Shown piece by piece: positions 15,513 through 60,790 of a stretch of 64,000 nt of DNA; within the stretch, counting starts at the first letter, position 1, and every line of letters begins with the position of its first letter. The stretch is from the NCBI GenBank assembly GCA_001630475.1, contig KV419399.1, forward strand, positions 208,552-272,551, given 5' to 3'. The position numbers and the translations under genes were made by a program. Source of the stretch: Sistotremastrum niveocremeum HHB9708 (taxonomy: Eukaryota; Basidiomycota; Agaricomycetes; Sistotremastrales; Sistotremastraceae). The notes under the pieces are model-generated. The model made no database searches and was not told the origin of the DNA. It worked only from the letters and a program-made list of their open reading frames with translations.

Positions 15513-15612
15513 NNNNNNNNNNNNNNNNNNNNNNNNNNNNNNNNNNNNNNNNNNNNNNNNNNNNNNNNNNNNNNNNNNNNNNNNNNNNNNNNNNNNNNNN
15601 NNNNNNNNNNNN
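15513..15612. other. Assembly gap (100 N)
   Basis: Exactly 100 undetermined bases, the usual placeholder for a gap of unknown size. It lies inside the transposase coding region. Confidence 1.
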
Positions 15613-18034: not shown

Positions 18035-18955
18035 ATGGAGCAACAAACGCACGCGCCTCCAGAGGTTAGAAATGTCGTGAACTTCCTTCGGAGTAGTTCT
18101 TCTGGTATGAAGACCAGAGTTGGTGTGTTGAATGGAAAGAGAGTAGATTATTTCAAAGGTACGTCTCAGTTGCCTCCCGACCTTTCACAAAAATACTAAC
18201 AGCCATATCAGGAAAGGGAGCTGTCAAAGCACTCACCAGCCCTGCATATGCGAAATTGAAGAACGTACCAAAAGTAGCCAACGAAACAGAGGCACAAACT
18301 CTGATCCAATCCATAATTCCCTACGCCTTCTTCCTACTCGTTGACCGAGGCGAACCTTCGGGCGGGGCTAATTCACCGAGACATATCCAAATCATCCAAC
18401 AACAGCAATTCGTCATGGACGGCTACTTCGCCTGGTTCTACGAAGGCTCTCAAATAATGACTTACATCGGAGGCGCAGCAATGGTTGCTGTCATGCTTGC
18501 TGGCGTCATGTTTCCATTATGGCCCCCCATCATGCGACTGGGGACTTGGTACCTCAGTATCGCTGTGCTGGGTCTAATTGGCTTGTTCTTCGCAATTGCT
18601 ATCGTCCGTTTAATATTCTACATAATAACGGTAATCGCCACCCCTCCCGGAATATGGATATTCCCAAAGCTTTTTGCTGATGTCGGCTTTGTGAGTGTTC
18701 AACTCTCTGATCAGCTTCCGAACTCTAACTCATGCTTCTCAGGTGGAATCGTTCATTCCATTATATGAATGGGATTACCCTAAGAAGAAGTCGAAGCGAA
18801 AGGAAAAGGAGGGCGGTGAAAAAGACAAGTCAAAAGCCGATCGCAAATCCAAGAAGTCGAAAGAGACTGCGAACGGCATCACCGCACCCGTTCCTCCAAC
18901 CGTCTCTGCGGGTGCAGGACCACGATCTGCGACTGTAGAAGAAGTAGAGGAATGA
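18035..18955 (+). CDS. SEC62: Sec62 protein translocation subunit
   Basis: Sec62 is an integral ER membrane protein that works with Sec63 and the Sec61 channel in post-translational import of secretory proteins. The ATG at 18035 opens MEQQTHAPPEVRNVVNFLRS. A short intron follows near 18159-18211, then GKGAVKALTSPAYAKL. The cytosolic domain ends before two membrane helices: one around MTYIGGAAMVAVMLAGVMFP, the other around LSIAVLGLIGLFFAIAIVRL. A second intron (about 18691-18742) precedes the ESFIPLYEWDYPKKKSKR segment and a Lys-rich, charged C-terminal tail ending ATVEEVEE. Length (about 270 aa), topology and motifs all fit fungal Sec62. It is convergent with the gene at 19330-20825. Confidence 0.95.
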
Positions 18956-22916: not shown

Positions 22917-24864
22917 ATGGAGTTCACCCCCGCTCCTGCTGTCCATCGTGTCCTGTGTGCGGATTGTGGTGAGTATTATGTCTTGTGGGCATGTCCCATG
23001 GTAGCTGATCTGTGCTGTTGCATTCAGGTGATCCGATAGAGCCAAATTCAGCGAATCTTTGTATACGATGCCTTCGTAATTCGTGCGTTGTTTGCAATCT
23101 TCTGAGTGTCATTAATTGACAGGACTGCAGCGTCGACATCACGGAAGGCATTCCTAAGCAAGGTCAGCAAATCTCTCGATCTCTATGATGTTTCTGTACT
23201 CATAATTCGTATAGCTTCCCTTGCATTCTGCAGAAATTGCGACCGATTCCTTTCCCCTCCCCAAACCTGGACCATCGCCCAACCTGAATCAAGAGAACTG
23301 CTTGCCATCTGCCTCAAAAAATTGAAGGGACTGAATAAAGTCCGCTTGATTGACGCTGGATTCATATGGACGGAACCTCACTCAAAGCGAATCAAAGTCA
23401 AGCTTACAATCCAAAAAGAGGTATGCACATAGTGCTATTACCCCTTTTCTTCGCTAATTCGTCCGCAAAGGTCTTCACATCGACTGTGATGCAACAGGTG
23501 TTCCAGGTTGAATATCTTGTCCAACACGGGCAGTGTCCTGATTGTGCGAAATTGGCTGCGAAAAACACCTGGAAAGCCCTCGTCCAAGTTCGTCAAAAGG
23601 TCCCTCATAAACGGACGTTCTTGTTCCTCGAGCAGTTGATCCTGAAGCACAATGCTCAAAAAGACACTATATCCGTCAAGGAAGTGAAAGATGGGTTGGA
23701 TTTCTTCTATGCTCAGAGAAGCCACGCGATCAAGATGGTGGAATTCCTGGCAGGTGTTGTTCCAGTCAGGTATGTTGCTTTCATTTCTTTACTGGCTTCT
23801 TCCTAAAGTGAAAATAGAACCAAATCGTCGGAACAGTTGTTGTCGACCGACACCCATTCTAATACCGCCAATTACAAGTTCACATACTCCGTCGAAATCC
23901 TGCCAATATGCAAGGATGACGTTGCATGCATGCCCATGAAACAGGCAAAATCATTAAGTAACATCAGGTATGTCTGTTGATTATTAGCATTTTCGACGGT
24001 CCCTTATATGCATCCAGCCCACTCACCATTGCCACGCGAGTCGGAAACTCTTTACATCTCCTCGACCCCTCAACCCTTCAGACCGCCGATATTTCCGCAC
24101 CAGTTTACTGGCGGAATCCCTTCTACAGCCTTGCATCCGTTTCAGATCTTGTCGAATTCACCGTTCTTGACATCGAGCCCTCGGGCCCGGTGAAAGGAAA
24201 ATGGGTACTGGCAGACGCTCAAGTTGCCATGTCCGGTGCTTTCAGATCCCAGAAAGACGATATGGACGCAGACATGGATGACGGCTCGACATCCCAGATA
24301 TTTCACACGCGTACTCATCTGGGCGCTATTCTTCAACCCGGAGACACCGCATTGGGGTATCATCTAACCAACGCCAACTTCAACAACGATCACTTTTCTT
24401 CATTACCAACTTCCCGTATACCTGATATCATCCTGGTGAAGAAGGCATACCCGAACAGTCGGAAGAAGAATAAGAACAGGAATTGGAGATTGAAGAGTAT
24501 CGCGAAGGAGGTGGAAAAGGGCAACGACGGTTCTGGTGCCGGCCGAGGTGTCGTTGGTCACGGAGGTGGTCGGAACCAGAAGAAAGTGGATGAAGATTAC
24601 GAGATCTTCTTGCGTGAGCTCGAGGAAGATCAGGAAATGCGTGGAGCGATCAATTTGTATAAGGCTGGAGGTGCGAAGCCTAGAAGACCGAAAGGACAGG
24701 GTGCTATGGAGGTTGAAGAGGAGACTCCCGCGCAGCCAGCTGCTGTCGACCACAAAATGTATGAAGACGATGAGACGGGAGAGGAGGAGGATATCGGTCC
24801 TTCCTTGGACGAGTTGCTGGACGATCTACACATTAATGACGAGGAGGGTGATCACTCGGAATAG
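22917..24864 (+). CDS. NMD3: 60S ribosomal export protein Nmd3
   Basis: Nmd3 is the adaptor that links nascent 60S subunits to the exportin Crm1. The ATG at 22917 opens MEFTPAPAVHRVLCADCG. Several ~50-nt introns follow near the 5' end. The N-terminal treble-clef zinc fingers are clear: CADCG, LCIRCLRNS and VDITEGIPKQ, then FCRNCDRFLSPPQTW. Conserved blocks follow: KKLKGLNKVRLIDAGFIWTE, HGQCPDCAKLAAKNTW, VRQKVPHKRTFLFLEQLIL and FYAQRSHAIKMVEFLAG. The C-terminal exon has VYWRNPFYSLA and DIEPSGPVKGKWVLAD, then DIILVKKAYPNSRKKNK and EDYEIFLRELEEDQEMRG. It ends in an acidic tail (DDLHINDEEGDHSE) where leucine-rich nuclear export signals reside in the family. It appears complete, roughly 500 residues. 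Confidence 0.96.
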
Positions 24865-30784: not shown

Positions 30785-31708
30785 CTACCAAGTTCTGCCG
30801 TCGACAATCCGACGACCTCGTTCTCTCTCCACAGCCTCCTTGCCTCTGGTCCCCGCCCCCGCCTCGATCCTCTTTCCTTTCCCTCCTATTCCATCGCCCA
30901 TTTTCAAGGGTGCATTCCCAGCATGCAACATCCTCATCGCCGCTTTGATGACGTTCATCGGGTTCCTGCTACCCCACACCTTCGCACTGACATCCTTGAT
31001 GCCAGCAGCTTTGAAGACCTGATGTAAATTTGGATTACATTGTAACCCAAATCCAACGGGGCGTGGTCGCATGATGATCCGTGTAGCTCCGAATTTCGTC
31101 TGTATTGTCGTCCATAATGTACGCTCTTCAAAGCGCTCGACGACGTCCATAGATCGAACGGCCTGAGTGAAAGCTTTTTGTGAAGCCTCCGGTATAGCTT
31201 CTGCTTTCCCTTCGCCATATCCAACCAATCCATTTCCGTTGCCCACGACAGTAAGAGCATAGAAAGACGCGATCTTTCCCTTTCCTGTCATTTGGACGAC
31301 TCGTTTCTGAACGAGAGGGTAGCGATGAAGTTTGCCGAGGTCTTTGTGGGGTATGGGGAGATGGTATTGAGGAGAATATTGTTCGATTTCTTCTCGAGAT
31401 GTTAGGACGCGTTCGCCTTTACTGTCCGTCTGCTGAAGATTCCATGGTGGAGGGTCGTTGTAGACCTTGACACTGGTTCCATGGCTCTTTTTAGTTGGAC
31501 GTTGCTCAGAGGCTTGGACGTTGTCGTATATCGGATTGTGGTGGAGGAAGAGGTCTGAAAATTCTGCGGGAGGGCGGGTGCGACGTGTCCTTCCGGTTCG
31601 TCTGGTGGATGTAGACGAGAAAGGTCTGTTTCTACAGACTGTCGACGAGGACGACGAGGCGAATTGTAGCAGCTCTCGTGACCATCCAAATTTTGCCAGA
31701 GCAGACAT
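30785..31708 (-). CDS. MRPS5: Mitochondrial small-subunit ribosomal protein uS5m
   Basis: This is a component of the mitochondrial 30S-type subunit, equivalent to bacterial S5. A single open frame carries the double-stranded-RNA-binding N-terminal S5 fold (KRVVQMTGKGKIASFYALTV, then GNGNGLVGYGEGKAEAIPEA, the classical S5 signature) and the C-terminal domain (KFGATRIIMRPRPVGFGLQ, then FKAAGIKDVSAKVWGSRNPM). The 5' region is a presequence rich in Ser, Arg and Thr. I chose the ATG at 31708 because it opens MSALAKFGWSRELLQFASSS, a good presequence. An ATG at 31762 would overlap the start codon of the divergent PITH gene. The C-terminal extension is basic. No intron is needed. Confidence 0.93.
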   Translation of the reverse strand: MSALAKFGWSRELLQFASSSSSTVCRNRPFSSTSTRRTGRTRRTRPPAEFSDLFLHHNPIYDNVQASEQRPTKKSHGTSVKVYNDPPPWNLQQTDSKGERVLTSREEIEQYSPQYHLPIPHKDLGKLHRYPLVQKRVVQMTGKGKIASFYALTVVGNGNGLVGYGEGKAEAIPEASQKAFTQAVRSMDVVERFEERTLWTTIQTKFGATRIIMRPRPVGFGLQCNPNLHQVFKAAGIKDVSAKVWGSRNPMNVIKAAMRMLHAGNAPLKMGDGIGGKGKRIEAGAGTRGKEAVERERGRRIVDGRTW

Positions 31709-31760
31709 GGCTTTCGACTGCTGTTTGGCTCTGTTTGTCAGAGCCTTCTTCGGCATCGCC
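31709..31760. promoter_or_regulatory. Very short divergent interval (uS5m / PITH protein)
   Basis: With the uS5m start at 31708 and the PITH start at 31761 only 52 bp lie between. Each transcript's leader must overlap the other gene. The CCATGG palindrome at 31759-31764 provides an ATG on both strands. Confidence 0.5.
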
Positions 31761-32606
31761 ATGGCTGATCCTGAGCATTCTATTGTTGACCATCTCGCTG
31801 GGTCTGATACGACGAATTTATATGCGGAAATAGACAGAGACAAGTGAGGTCTGGCAAACTCCCAAAGGGCTTCCACTCAGAGCGGTTCCTGACGTTGCGT
31901 AGCGTTCACGGGCTCAATCTGGCTGTTCCGGAGGACGCGCGGGCTATTATCAAAACTTGGGACCAACGAGAGGATACCTCTGTCTCTGCTGATTCTGGTG
32001 TTGACGATCAGGTCCGATGACTCGAAAGGCTGTACTGTTGGCTGGTGTTTACGAACGATGTCAATCTGCAGCTCATCATCCACATACCTTTCACTCAGCA
32101 AGTCCGTATTCGGTCGATTCTGGTCAAAGTTGGTATGAGGTCACCCCTTGGAAGTGTCATATGTCACGTCTCAAATGATCCTTTCAGGGAGAGGCGAAGT
32201 CGCACCAACTCGGCTACGCGTATACGCTAATTACCCCACAATTATCGACTTTGCAGATGCTGAAGCTATCAAACCTCACATCAACATGTCTCTGCTAGAA
32301 GGCCAAGTTGCTGTCACCGAATACCCAGTCCGAGCCGCTGCTTTCACCAGCATCAATAGCCTGTCATTATTCTTCGTCAGTCTCTGATTTCCCTCGCTTG
32401 ACTTGTGCCTTACGTCGATATCCCAGAGTGAGTCAAGTGGCGGGGATATGAGCAGAATATATTACATCGGATTCAAAGGAGACGTACGAAGTCCACAGCG
32501 CGAACCCGGGAATAGAATAGACGTTCGCGCCCAGAACGCGGCAGACGCCAGCATCGTGGATAGAGTGGGCGAGAAGAGCGCCGCCCGTCAGTCTACCATT
32601 CGCTAG
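31761..32606 (+). CDS. PITH-domain protein (PITHD1/TXNL1 C-terminal type)
   Basis: The PITH domain interacts with the 26S proteasome in thioredoxin-like 1 and its relatives. Five exons fit in phase: 31761-31843, 31903-32011, 32072-32132, 32188-32375 and 32427-32606, giving 206 residues. The sequence runs MADPEHSIVDHLAGSDTTNL, then EIDRDNVHGLNLAVPEDA, QLIIHIPFTQQVRIRSILVK, APTRLRVYANYPTIIDFADA, VTEYPVRAAAFTSINSLSLF and SRIYYIGFKGD, the family's hallmark blocks. There is no thioredoxin domain, so it is the stand-alone PITHD1 type. It ends DRVGEKSAARQSTIR. Confidence 0.92.
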
Positions 32607-46248: not shown

Positions 46249-48396
46249 ATGAACGGCGGGTCCTCCTCGTCTGTACAGGATACGACGCCGCTAGTTAACA
46301 CATCCAACCCGAGTCACCGTCCTGGTCAAATTGCTTCGTTCGCTCGAAATGCCGTAGGCGTTCCTACGATAGTCCGTACGCCACCCTACGCCTTGCAGTA
46401 TATACCAGTGGCAGTACCTAATGCTCATGCCTATATACCGCCTGGAGTTACTCAACAAAGGACGGAATCAGAATTGTCTGACAAGATGGAGGCTCTCTTG
46501 ACGCGCTGCTTCAACAATCTAAACGAGACTCTGGGACGAAAGATCGACACGCTGGCTCAAAGGATAGAGACTATTGAGGCTTTACACGAGGCCTCAAGAG
46601 TTGCGAGAGAACATGATGTGGATCGTGACCGTGTACGGAAGATTGATATTGGTGAGTTTATGACTGGTCATCATAATCTTCCAAGTCGCTCAAGGTTATG
46701 CAGACTCCCGCCTCGGTTTGGTGGAAGCTCTACTCAAGAACGTCGCAAATGCAGCCTCTCCTCCATCACCTTCCCAATCTACGATAGTTGCCTCATCAGA
46801 AAGCCCCGCCGGCGGATTGAGTTGTGAGTCTTCATGAGCATATATTGTGGCACGGCCTCAGGCTTGGCGTATGTGTTTTGCGCGCAGATACTCCTCCGAG
46901 TCTAGATATCCCGCGTGAGCATTGGCTATTATTCTGCTTGCATATGAGCGAATCTGATGAGTATAAGCAGCTGTCGTCACCGAAGACCAAACTCCCACAC
47001 CATCTCAGTCTGCACCACAAGGCACGCTCTTGTCCACGCATATACGACCATTCTCTGAATTTCCGTTTTAGGCTTGATAACCTTTCTGCAATCTAAGCCA
47101 TGGGACGAGACCGCCGAGAGATCTGTCCTTCCCAAAATTTATGACCACATCAAGACTTACTACTCACCTGATCCGTCTCAATCTGCATCCCAAATTTCAA
47201 CTCCTGATAATCGAAATTCACTAAAGCGGAAGAGATCCGACCTAACCCAAACTGAACCTGAACCTCCCATGAGTCCTTTAACCCCTCTACCCCCAACTCC
47301 GGATCGTCCTGCCAATCCCAGAGTCATACAGCTGAATCCCGAACGTCCAACCACTCCAACGGCCGCTCGCCGCTCTCACAGAGACAGACAAGCTGCTTCG
47401 ACAGCAGCTGCCGTGGTCCCAACGCCGACCCCTTCCCCCAAGAAACCTCGGACTACTGCACCCTCTGTCTCGCATCCGAGAATTGGTGAAGTCGCGACCC
47501 GGAAACCTAAAGCGTCAAAGCCTCGCAAGCATACGAATCCTGCGGGAGCCACAAGTGCCGATCTTCTTGAGGTCGTCAAAATTCGTCAAGATCTGATAGC
47601 TAAGATCGAGAAACAAACACCCAATCTTGTTTGGCCGAAAGCTCTGCAGGAAGAAGAGACAAAGCTTGTGAGCGAATATTTGTACCCCTTCAACTCTTTT
47701 TACTGATTGTCCTACGTCAGTTGATCAATTGCGACGTGTAAGTTCTCCTCCAGTGGTCTAGCATAGTCCGAATCTTGACTGATTGCCTCGCAGTTGCCAA
47801 TTCTGGTATCATTTCGGATGTGTAGGTTTAGATGGAAGACTGGATCGAAATGGTGAAGACTTCGTATGTCCTCCATGTTCGAAGAACATGTTAGTTCTTC
47901 ACGTTCCAGATTGTCCTTTTTTCTGAGTCTAACCCACTGTGTCCAGATATATGGGTGATGCTCCATGTCTTCGAACGTGCCGTCAGCAACTGATAGAGGC
48001 TATCTACAGACACTCGTATCCGAGTCAAGAACACGCACAAGATAGTGAAGTGCATGATGCCCAGTTGCACAAATATCACAACAGAGGAAGAGTTCTTCAT
48101 CGAGAAAGTGATCGCTATGAAAGTAGTGAGTTCGCAAGGGGAAATTGCGAAGCATCCTTGGCTCGTGAAGTGGCAAAGGTGCGTGACCCGAATCCTCATC
48201 TACGAACTCCCTTGAAGATATGGATGTCAGTTACGGGCTGGAGGAGGCTACGTGGGAGCCCTCATCAAATATTCACGACGATTACATAAACGCATTCCAA
48301 GACGAAGTCAAGCTATCAGGAGTACAGGTCGACGGGTTCAATGTTATCTTTCTCCCTGAAGCTCGTAGACTCTTCAAAAACAGTCCCAACGGTTGA
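46249..48396 (+). CDS. PHD-like finger plus chromodomain protein
   Basis: The N-terminal ~190 residues are disordered with a coiled coil (MEALLTRCFNNLNETLGRKI). A long low-complexity Pro/Thr/Ser and Lys/Arg region follows. A conserved module starts at IRQDLIAKIEKQTPNLVWP (near 47590). A 17-nt microexon at 47721-47737 (LINCDV) leads into CQFWYHFGCVGLDGRLDR and EDFVCPPCSKN, the second half of a PHD finger (CxxC...HxxC...CxxC); the first Cys pair is not evident. After further exons KCMMPSC precedes a chromodomain: EEEFFIEKVIAMK, WLVKWQSYGLEEATWEPSSN. Chromodomains bind methylated histone lysines, so a chromatin reader is likely. It ends FLPEARRLFKNSPNG at 48394-48396. The same module is found fused to a kinase at 58691-60790. 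Exon ends around 47890-48030 are uncertain. Confidence 0.75.
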
Positions 48397-48975
48397 GCCG
48401 TGGCGAATGTCCCCTTTGTGTCCCGTTCCGTTTTTACCCCACCTTCTTGTCACGTTGCGCTTTCATTTTATGTATCGCTTTCCTCATTCTCGATGCTTTC
48501 CTTGATCTCCCTCGATGCCGCACTTACATTACTCACGATTCGGAGGCATATGTTGGAACCTGTTCGTATATTCAAACATGTATCATAGTGATCGTTCGAA
48601 TTTTCTCCATCTGTGGACCGCGAAAGAGTTATATTACATCGTCAGGTGAATCGATTGATTACAGAGTGGAGTACTAAAGCAACCCGGTGGCGTGCGACAT
48701 GTCCGTTTTCCAAAAATATAAAGAAAGTCCAGCGGAGAGGGAGGAAAGAAGGCCTCAAAATTGAATCTAAATAAAGATGGGAAAAGAAAGGACATGAAAA
48801 GGGTCATTATTGGCAATCCGATTGTCCGCGGGGGAGAGAAAGAGAGGAAGGATGAGTGGTTGCGAAAGGACAAATGCAATGAGTGACGAGTATGTACAAA
48901 TGATTTCGTTAAGGAAAACATGTTGCATGGTTATGCGAGACGGGGCAGCAGACGCGAGAAGATGTGGTTTCTCGA

Positions 48976-58690: not shown

Positions 58691-60790
58691 CTAGTAAGTC
58701 TTGAAGAGTTTGATAGCTTCAGGAAGACAAGTGACGGGGCGACCATCATCTGCTCTACAACTGAGCTTGGCCGGTACGTCTTGGAATATCCTGATCACGT
58801 CGTGGGGAACATTTGACTCAGGTTCCCATGTAGTCTCTTCAATACTGTACCTGGGGTACATCATTAAACGTCTCAACGCAGGCTATTGATTACGAAAAAA
58901 GACTCACCCCTGCCATTTGATGAGCCAAGGTTGATCTACCCCAGCCTCATCCGTATTTGAATATTTCATGGCAAGGATTTTCTCGATGTAGTATTCTTCT
59001 TCCGTGCTATAAGGGCAGTGAGGTACCATACATTCCACCACGGAAAGGGTGTTTTTAACTCTGATACGATTGCCTAGATATGACGTCGTCAGCCGGTAGA
59101 CGCATCACCAGACAATTGGAATGGCACCTAGGAGACTTTGAGGAAATGGTGAGTGACCGAAATTGGCGAATGAACGATTGACGGAATCACGACTCACATA
59201 TTTTGCGAACAAGGCGGACATATAAAATCTTCTTCGTTCCGATCTAGTCCGCCGGCCAAACCTACGCAGCCGAAATGATACCAAAAGTGACAACTGTGGG
59301 AGGAGAAAATACTCCACGTCAGCCTCACCCAGTCAACAAGTGGCGATATATTCTTACGTATCACATTGAATCCACTAGCACAATTCGAGCATCAGACGAA
59401 GCAGCATTCTCACACCATCTTTCGCTCACAAGGGTCGACTCCGTGTCGTGAGGAGTGGGCCAGACAAGATGGGGGAGTTGCTTCTCGATCTTCGCGATGA
59501 GACTTTGCCTGGCCCCGTACGTAACGTGCCCAGAGGTCCTTGTTCTAGTTTTGCGCCTTGTTGCATGCACGGATGTCGAAGAGGCAAGGTGATTTCTCAA
59601 GTGCGTTGTCCCGAAGCGCAAAGGGCGTAGTATACCGAGAATTCTCAGGCAATCAGGGCGGGAAGATGGGTTGAAATTCCAACACTCTTTGCAAAGAGAC
59701 CAAAGGGTGCGGTAGTGCTCGAAATCGGTTGGAACGCTCGACGCCGTGCCGGTAGCATCGAGGCTCCCGGAGACACTCGTGAACGGAGGTATCCGGTTGA
59801 TCATGGCGAAGATAATGCTGGCCGGTGTTCTACAAGTGGCATAAGGCAGAAGAAAGGAAATCAATTCCTGTATAGAAGAACGGTCATTTTCGTGACAAGG
59901 AAAGAGTATGCCACGGACAAGAACCACACAACCGAAAGCCCAGATGTCACTTTCATGTGTTGCATTCAAGGTCGAGTCGACTGCACAAGCAAGCTCCGGT
60001 GCCATGTACCGAACCGTACCCTTCAGGCCAGTGGTCGTCGAAGCCACCTCGGACGAAAATACCGCGTCAGCGCTGATGAGCCTGGCTAGACCGAAGTCGG
60101 CCAGAACGGCGGTCCCTTCATCCGAAACCAGAATATTGCTCTGTGATGCAGTTCTTCAATTGACATCGATCTAACGGTAAGATAGCTTACGCCTTTCAGA
60201 TCCCCGTGAACTACTCCTTTAGAATGGAGATATGAGAGTCCGCTGCAGATTTCTATCAACTGCAAAACACGATCAGAAAGTAGCAACCTGCAAGAGACGG
60301 ACAAACCAGTTTGACCCGGTCTACCTCAGCGTTGCTCCGAACGTAGTCTATGACTGTTCCATTCTGCATCCACGGAGATACCAGCGAAAAAGTGGAAACG
60401 TCGCTGTCTGCAGAGCCATAGGTGCCATGAAAGAAACAAAACCCCAAGAACGGCAGAATATTCTCGTGCTGCATAGATGACCAAAGCCGCATTTCCCAAT
60501 TCACGTTCTGCGTTGATTTTGAATAAAGACTCGCAGTTCTTCTCGACGGGAAAGAATGCCACTTCACGTACTCGAGCTAAAGATCGCTTCTTTTCGTCTC
60601 CGTCCACGTGAACCTCTCTAAACACCTTGACTGCAACGATCTGCTCATCGATTCTTGCCTGGTAGATATCCGAATAGCCTCCAACTGCACATCGGTTCGT
60701 GCTTCGGTCGAGGCCAGTGATGCGATCTGTCAGGTTTTGTGATTCTTGAGTGCGACTTGATTCGTCTGCACGCAGACTCGGAAATGCCAT
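58691..60790 (-). CDS. Protein kinase fused to PHD-like finger and chromodomain
   Basis: The ATG at 60790 opens MAFPSLRADESSRTQ. The kinase domain has a glycine loop GGYSDIYQARI, VAVKVF with the ATP lysine, NWEMRLWSSMQHENILPFLG with the helix-C Glu, and HSKGVVHGDLKGSNIL as catalytic loop (the Arg of HRD is Gly, common in fungal TKL-like kinases). Then come VLADFGLARL with DFG, GTVRYMAPEL with APE, and ESDIWAFGCVVLELISFLLP. In the same uninterrupted exon the sequence runs on to ARQSLIAKIEKQLPHLVWP, the start of the module seen at 46249-48396. A 17-nt microexon (59358-59374, WIQCD) leads into CHFWYHFGCVGLAGGLDR and EDFICPPCSQN, then VECMVPHCP and a chromodomain: EEEYYIEKILAMK, WLIKWQG, YSIEETTWEPESNVP. 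It ends CLPEAIKLFKTY. All catalytic residues appear intact. Phase-consistent introns near 60522-60588, 60253-60299 and 60140-60190 support the model. Confidence 0.8.

Follow-up and report, generated by a model that had tools for sequence, protein, structure and literature searches.

A putative kinase–reader gene and its surroundings

We analysed a 64,000-nucleotide stretch of the Sistotremastrum niveocremeum HHB9708 genome, hereafter the window, and find on its minus strand, between positions 60790 and 58691, a single gene in which, from its sequence, an intact protein kinase appears to be fused with a chromatin-reading tail. An ATG at 60790 and a TAG ending at 58691 are the bounds of a 531-codon frame, which our hand-built model divides into 10 exons encoding 531 amino acids with no inner stop. 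The nine introns are all GT-AG and 47-64 nt long. The model is based on splice signals, reading frame and protein similarity, with splice sites picked by hand. In the 531-residue protein, Pfam identifies Pkinase at residues 37-313 (2.9e-37), PHD at 380-417 (4.5e-6) and Chromo at 452-503 (5.3e-9); all three matches exceed their curated cut-offs. The kinase motifs fall at residues 52-57 (VAVKVF), 158-165 (HGDLKGSN), 178-180 (DFG) and 209-212 (MAPE), and those of the tail at 360-367 (LIAKIEKQ) and 448-490 (chromodomain motifs). The parts of the gene are as follows.

60572..60790, minus strand: exon 1, with the start ATG, the G-loop and the VAVKVF lysine; several paralogue matches stop at residue 73
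60307..60507, minus strand: exon 2, with the alpha-C glutamate region (NWEMRLW) of the N-lobe
60191..60259, minus strand: exon 3, with HGDLKG; paralogue matches stop at residue 163
59919..60140, minus strand: exon 4, with SN, DFG, APE and SDIWAFG
59868..59918, minus strand: intron 4, 51 nt and stop-free, taken as coding in the first-pass annotation
59430..59867, minus strand: exon 5 (438 nt, the fusion exon), with the end of the kinase C-lobe, the linker and the lead-in LIAKIEKQLPHLVWP
59358..59374, minus strand: exon 6, a 17-nt microexon encoding WIQCD and part of T; equal in length to 47721-47737
59198..59293, minus strand: exon 7, with PHD ligands C390, H395, C398, C414 and C417 (C387 is on exon 6)
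59128..59135, minus strand: exon 8, an 8-nt microexon; equal in length to 47947-47954, partly by construction
58908..59073, minus strand: exon 9, with CMVPHC and the first part of the chromodomain
58691..58850, minus strand: exon 10, with the remaining chromodomain, the C-terminus and the stop

Two earlier hand-built models made wrong splice choices that broke the frame. Other splice sites also give an open frame, that of a third model with 527 residues in which 59067-59007 is an intron; we rejected it because the paralogous gene described below keeps this stretch as protein (RIRVKNT...V.CM.P.C).

Elsewhere in the window, 10 of the 57 other listed open reading frames were scanned against Pfam, and three had a match. 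A 100-letter run of non-ACGT letters at 15513-15612 is probably an assembly gap.

30788-31876, minus strand: ribosomal protein S5
23962-24861, plus strand: NMD3
18097-18765, plus strand: Sec62

The kinase domain and its family

The N-terminal half of the protein has the features of a eukaryotic protein kinase, combining its strong Pkinase match with K55, DFG and APE (210-212). The catalytic motifs that the first-pass annotation had listed as needed for activity are all found in the model, and the kinase is predicted to be active. The catalytic loop reads HGD, not HRD, a difference that counts against the explanation proposed below. The match to PF07714 (5.9e-33) is weaker than that to PF00069, and a search of solved structures with the kinase at 1e-25 returns one distinct sequence, an EGFR construct (9p9u, 1.1e-28). 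The kinase probably belongs to the TKL type, as judged from its motifs. PMC3937382 gives CW(x)6RPxF as a motif common to TK and TKL, and DL(R/A)A(A/R)N as the subdomain VI motif of TK. The corresponding subdomain VI stretch here is DLKGSN, and the segment CWNFNPSSRPDC has CW(x)6RP. The same source describes a lineage-specific expansion of TKL and FslK kinases in the Agaricomycetes, in which 16 of 241 FslK members have additional domains. Our kinase is like these in its lineage-specific expansion and in the absence of TK-specific motifs, but differs in having C in place of the final F of CW(x)6RPxF; membership is compared here by motif.

The kinase family is large in this genome. From 150 scored candidates we obtain 119 matches at E <= 0.001, a count of exons rather than genes that includes the query gene's own exons. 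Sixteen of the 119 lie within 89 kb on one contig (G000:C50:110291-199193), a probable family cluster. Compared with its paralogues at 14 loci, the kinase part shows pN of 0.31-0.42 and pS of 0.77-0.81; in this set L025 and L026 repeat four others, L015 is excluded because it overlaps L010, only matches longer than 40 residues are used, stop codons are removed, and some codons enter twice where matches overlap.

Paralogue matches also bear on the exon boundaries of the model. Intron 4 is hidden and reads through, because its 51 nt are a multiple of three without a stop. At its position, 4 of the 12 distinct paralogue stretches break (at 237/238 in L011, L012 and L008, and at 237/239 in L017), L016 overlaps, and 7 run across. 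Two genes in L025 run across the site, yet their translation has stops there, as an intron would give. Breaks at residues 73 and 163/164 likewise fit the modelled exon ends.

We also translated the DNA beyond the kinase end at 12 loci (14 rows, L010 being repeated in L025). The resulting stretches differ from one another, and most are not reliable tails since many contain stops. Pfam searches on 4 of the 14 rows gave one TPR match, one sub-threshold Arrestin_N match and two rows without a match. The first of these comes from a kinase paralogue (L007; G000:C54:142447-143007, minus strand) whose frame stays open past the end of the kinase and into TPR repeats (TPR_10, 4e-12). In the second (L013; G000:C41:239383-239862, plus strand), the kinase is followed by the weak Arrestin_N match (0.01). 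This suggests that altered tails may not be unusual in the kinase family, and the gain of a tail fits this family because a paralogous kinase reads stop-free into TPR repeats.

The tail module, its second copy and the join

The first-pass annotation had described the tail as a PHD-like finger with a chromodomain. This description stands in that both domains score above their Pfam cut-offs, and needs qualifying in that the PHD is without zinc ligands 1 and 2. The PHD match (27.0 bits versus a curated 24) starts only at position 9 of the 47-position profile and runs to its end, which leaves out the first zinc ligands. A PHD finger has eight zinc ligands in the order C4HC3; here C387, C390, H395, C398, C414 and C417 are present, and the first two ligands are missing from both copies of the tail that we find in the genome. 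The best PDB match to the tail is the BPTF-type PHD (2fui, 4e-7), followed by DIDO1 (6e-7). BPTF has the first CxC as C-I-C-K, whereas L-V-W-P is aligned there in the kinase gene, and the paralogue is also without the CxC. In both tail copies a CxxxxC motif (CMVPHC, residues 438-443) starts 21 residues past the last PHD cysteine and might substitute for the missing ligands.

The chromodomain scores 36.3 bits versus a cut-off of 25.1. In an alignment with CBX/HP1 sequences, aromatic residues occupy the cage positions, namely the Y of EEEY and the W and Y of LIKWQGY; we take these to be the three-aromatic methyl-lysine cage of HP1. Against the PDB, the chromodomain part matches HP1-type domains, best 1ap0 (1.8e-6), from which it differs by a longer insert before LIKW.

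The second copy of the tail is the C-terminal part of a PHD-chromodomain gene that lies 11 kb away on the opposite strand.

46249..48397, plus strand: paralogous PHD-chromodomain gene; its N-terminal half, including the ATG, is approximate (modelled with stops)
ending at 47667, plus strand: first tail exon of the paralogue
47721-47737, plus strand: second tail exon
47794-47889, plus strand: third tail exon
47947-47954, plus strand: fourth tail exon
48010-48178, plus strand: fifth tail exon
48231-48397, plus strand: sixth tail exon

The paralogue has the same tail, comprising the lead-in, the PHD without ligands 1-2, the CxxxxC, the chromodomain and a C-terminal extension. It differs in having another N-terminal region (in an approximate model) and no kinase; at E up to 0.1, kinase matches in the window are confined to the kinase–reader gene itself, with none in the paralogue. 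The two tail proteins are 58% identical and their exon structures run in parallel. Exons of 17 and 96 nt are equal in length between the two genes, and these had been set in the kinase gene before the paralogue was modelled; the 8-nt exons were picked jointly in both genes to restore the frame, which accounts in part for their identical length. Both tail copies contain microexons (17 and 8 nt), the shorter of which could be overlooked by automatic gene callers.

At the DNA level, the two tails are linked by an inverted repeat of 105 nt at 77% identity (59192-59296 and 47791-47895) and by an inverted match of 50 nt at 78% (59458-59507 on the minus strand and 47587-47636) that marks the start of detectable tail homology; the two repeats lie 11.3 and 11.8 kb apart. 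Inverted repeats and matching exon lengths together argue that the module was copied as DNA, introns included, rather than by retroposition. A tblastn match of the tail covers 59510-59433. In each gene, detectable homology begins within a coding exon (near 59510 in one and 47584 in the other); the actual join may be situated farther upstream, within the linker.

A search of the 34.7 Mb genome with the tail gave three matches, of which the kinase gene has two and the paralogue one. A second tail search, allowing E values up to 1, gave six: two per gene, plus a pair of weak chromodomain hits (0.003 and 0.037). No third clear copy was found in the genome by these searches, which score best candidates only. 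A genome search with PF00385 gave 12 matches from 18 candidates, with neither tail gene among them; this count is incomplete, since both tail genes, whose chromodomains are split by an intron, were missed, and an absence at the level of the family therefore cannot be claimed. With an alignment of the two tail sequences, relatives were also sought among 164 pattern stretches in viral contigs and 416 in prokaryote contigs, and none was confirmed in either collection, neither of which would be expected to hold a fungal orthologue.

Comparing the two tails over 172 aligned codons (gaps excluded) gives a pN of 0.264, a pS of 0.721 and a Jukes-Cantor dN/dS of about 0.13, with a 95% bootstrap range for the uncorrected pN/pS of 0.28-0.47 (2000 resamples). 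The finger exons (38 codons; pN 0.13, pS 0.85) are more constrained than the chromodomain exons (107 codons; pN 0.32, pS 0.70). Because synonymous sites are near saturation, the split between the tails is old, and both copies have probably been constrained for most of the time since, as free drift of one copy would give a ratio of about 0.5 or more. Most of this constraint may predate the fusion.

These data bear on whether the gene makes a functional protein at all. Ours is the single such gene found in the genome, as might be the case for a pseudogene or an unexpressed chimera. However, its 531 codons contain no frameshift or stop across nine GT-AG introns, and pN/pS is low in both halves despite near-saturated synonymous divergence. 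We regard a non-functional chimera as unlikely.

The join itself can be read directly. The first-pass annotation had placed the kinase motifs and the lead-in on one uninterrupted exon; this is true only of the C-lobe end and the LIAKIEKQ lead-in, which share exon 5, as exon 1 encodes VAVKVF, exon 3 HGDLKG, and exon 4 SN, DFG and APE. Its broader claim that the fusion is not a gene-calling artefact is supported, for the join is present in the DNA and the kinase frame is stop-free to the lead-in whether intron 4 is spliced or retained. A kinase gene ending near 59600 and a separate tail gene, wrongly joined, would be the alternative, and the paralogue does show the tail occurring in a gene with no kinase. 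Yet the C-lobe end and the lead-in lie on the single 438-nt exon with no stop between them, and the first stop, reached by reading on through intron 5, is at 59363-59361. Moreover, there is no in-frame Met between residue 259, within the kinase, and residue 439, past the PHD, so that a tail-only protein has no ATG ahead of the PHD. We consider two misjoined genes the least probable of the alternatives, and improbable in absolute terms. Across the 48 codons that start at RILGILR and reach the lead-in, the frame stays open in 12% of mononucleotide shuffles, which with a one-in-three frame match gives the open join alone a chance of about 4%. Taken by itself the open linker is weak evidence, and far more weight falls on the domain matches and the paralogue.

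A candidate chromatin-tethered kinase

Four observations made here, namely an unbroken frame, matches to all three domains, parallel exon structure and constraint on the tail, lead us to propose with moderate confidence, as the best explanation, an old chimeric kinase with a chromatin-reader tail that is predicted to tether the kinase to methyl-marked chromatin. A kinase from a large local family would have gained an in-frame tail after its C-lobe, consisting of the lead-in, the PHD-like finger, the CxxxxC and the chromodomain in which the gene 11 kb away also ends. This module was probably brought in by an old inverted DNA duplication in which introns were kept, and the neighbouring PHD-chromodomain gene would be the donor and the older copy. 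The chromodomain, from its sequence, is expected to bind methylated histone tails; an active Ser/Thr-type kinase would thereby be kept on marked chromatin, where it may phosphorylate histones or bound proteins.

The fusion may instead be real while its tail is not a histone-methyl reader, serving as a protein-protein or localisation module for a kinase with other targets. The PHD match that starts at profile position 9, the first CxC absent from both copies, the L-V-W-P aligned to C-I-C-K of BPTF and the unrelated TPR tail of one kinase paralogue are all consistent with such a module. A Chromo match above the Pfam cut-off, aromatics at the HP1-type cage positions and constraint in the tail sequence argue against it, and we see it as a lesser but substantial possibility. 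The chromatin-reader account can also be put in its fullest form, as a chromatin-tethered, TKL-type kinase under selection, born by inverted duplication of the neighbouring reader module and writing phosphorylation on methyl-marked chromatin, whose PHD may use the downstream CxxxxC for its two missing ligands. Taken with all its parts, this version is speculative, and we put it forward only tentatively.

TAF1 and BRD4 are bromodomain-linked kinases, each pairing a reader of histone marks with kinase activity on a single polypeptide. Theirs is an acetyl-lysine reader with another kinase type, whereas the reader here is a chromodomain. A kinase-chromodomain protein was not found among the matches listed from open-access titles and abstract openings, a scope that most subscription papers fall outside. 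The statement in the first-pass annotation that no protein of this layout was known thus meets no counterexample in that literature, which is weak evidence of absence. The word 'chromo' is absent from the main text of PMC3937382.

Judged by its domains, the protein would be a domain-shuffled fungal kinase, notable for its tail. If made and working as we propose, it would provide a direct, one-polypeptide link from a histone-methyl reader to kinase signalling, and would be an example of an expanded fungal kinase family acquiring new tails. Because the likely donor gene is still present only 11 kb away, the origin of this putative fusion is open to detailed study.
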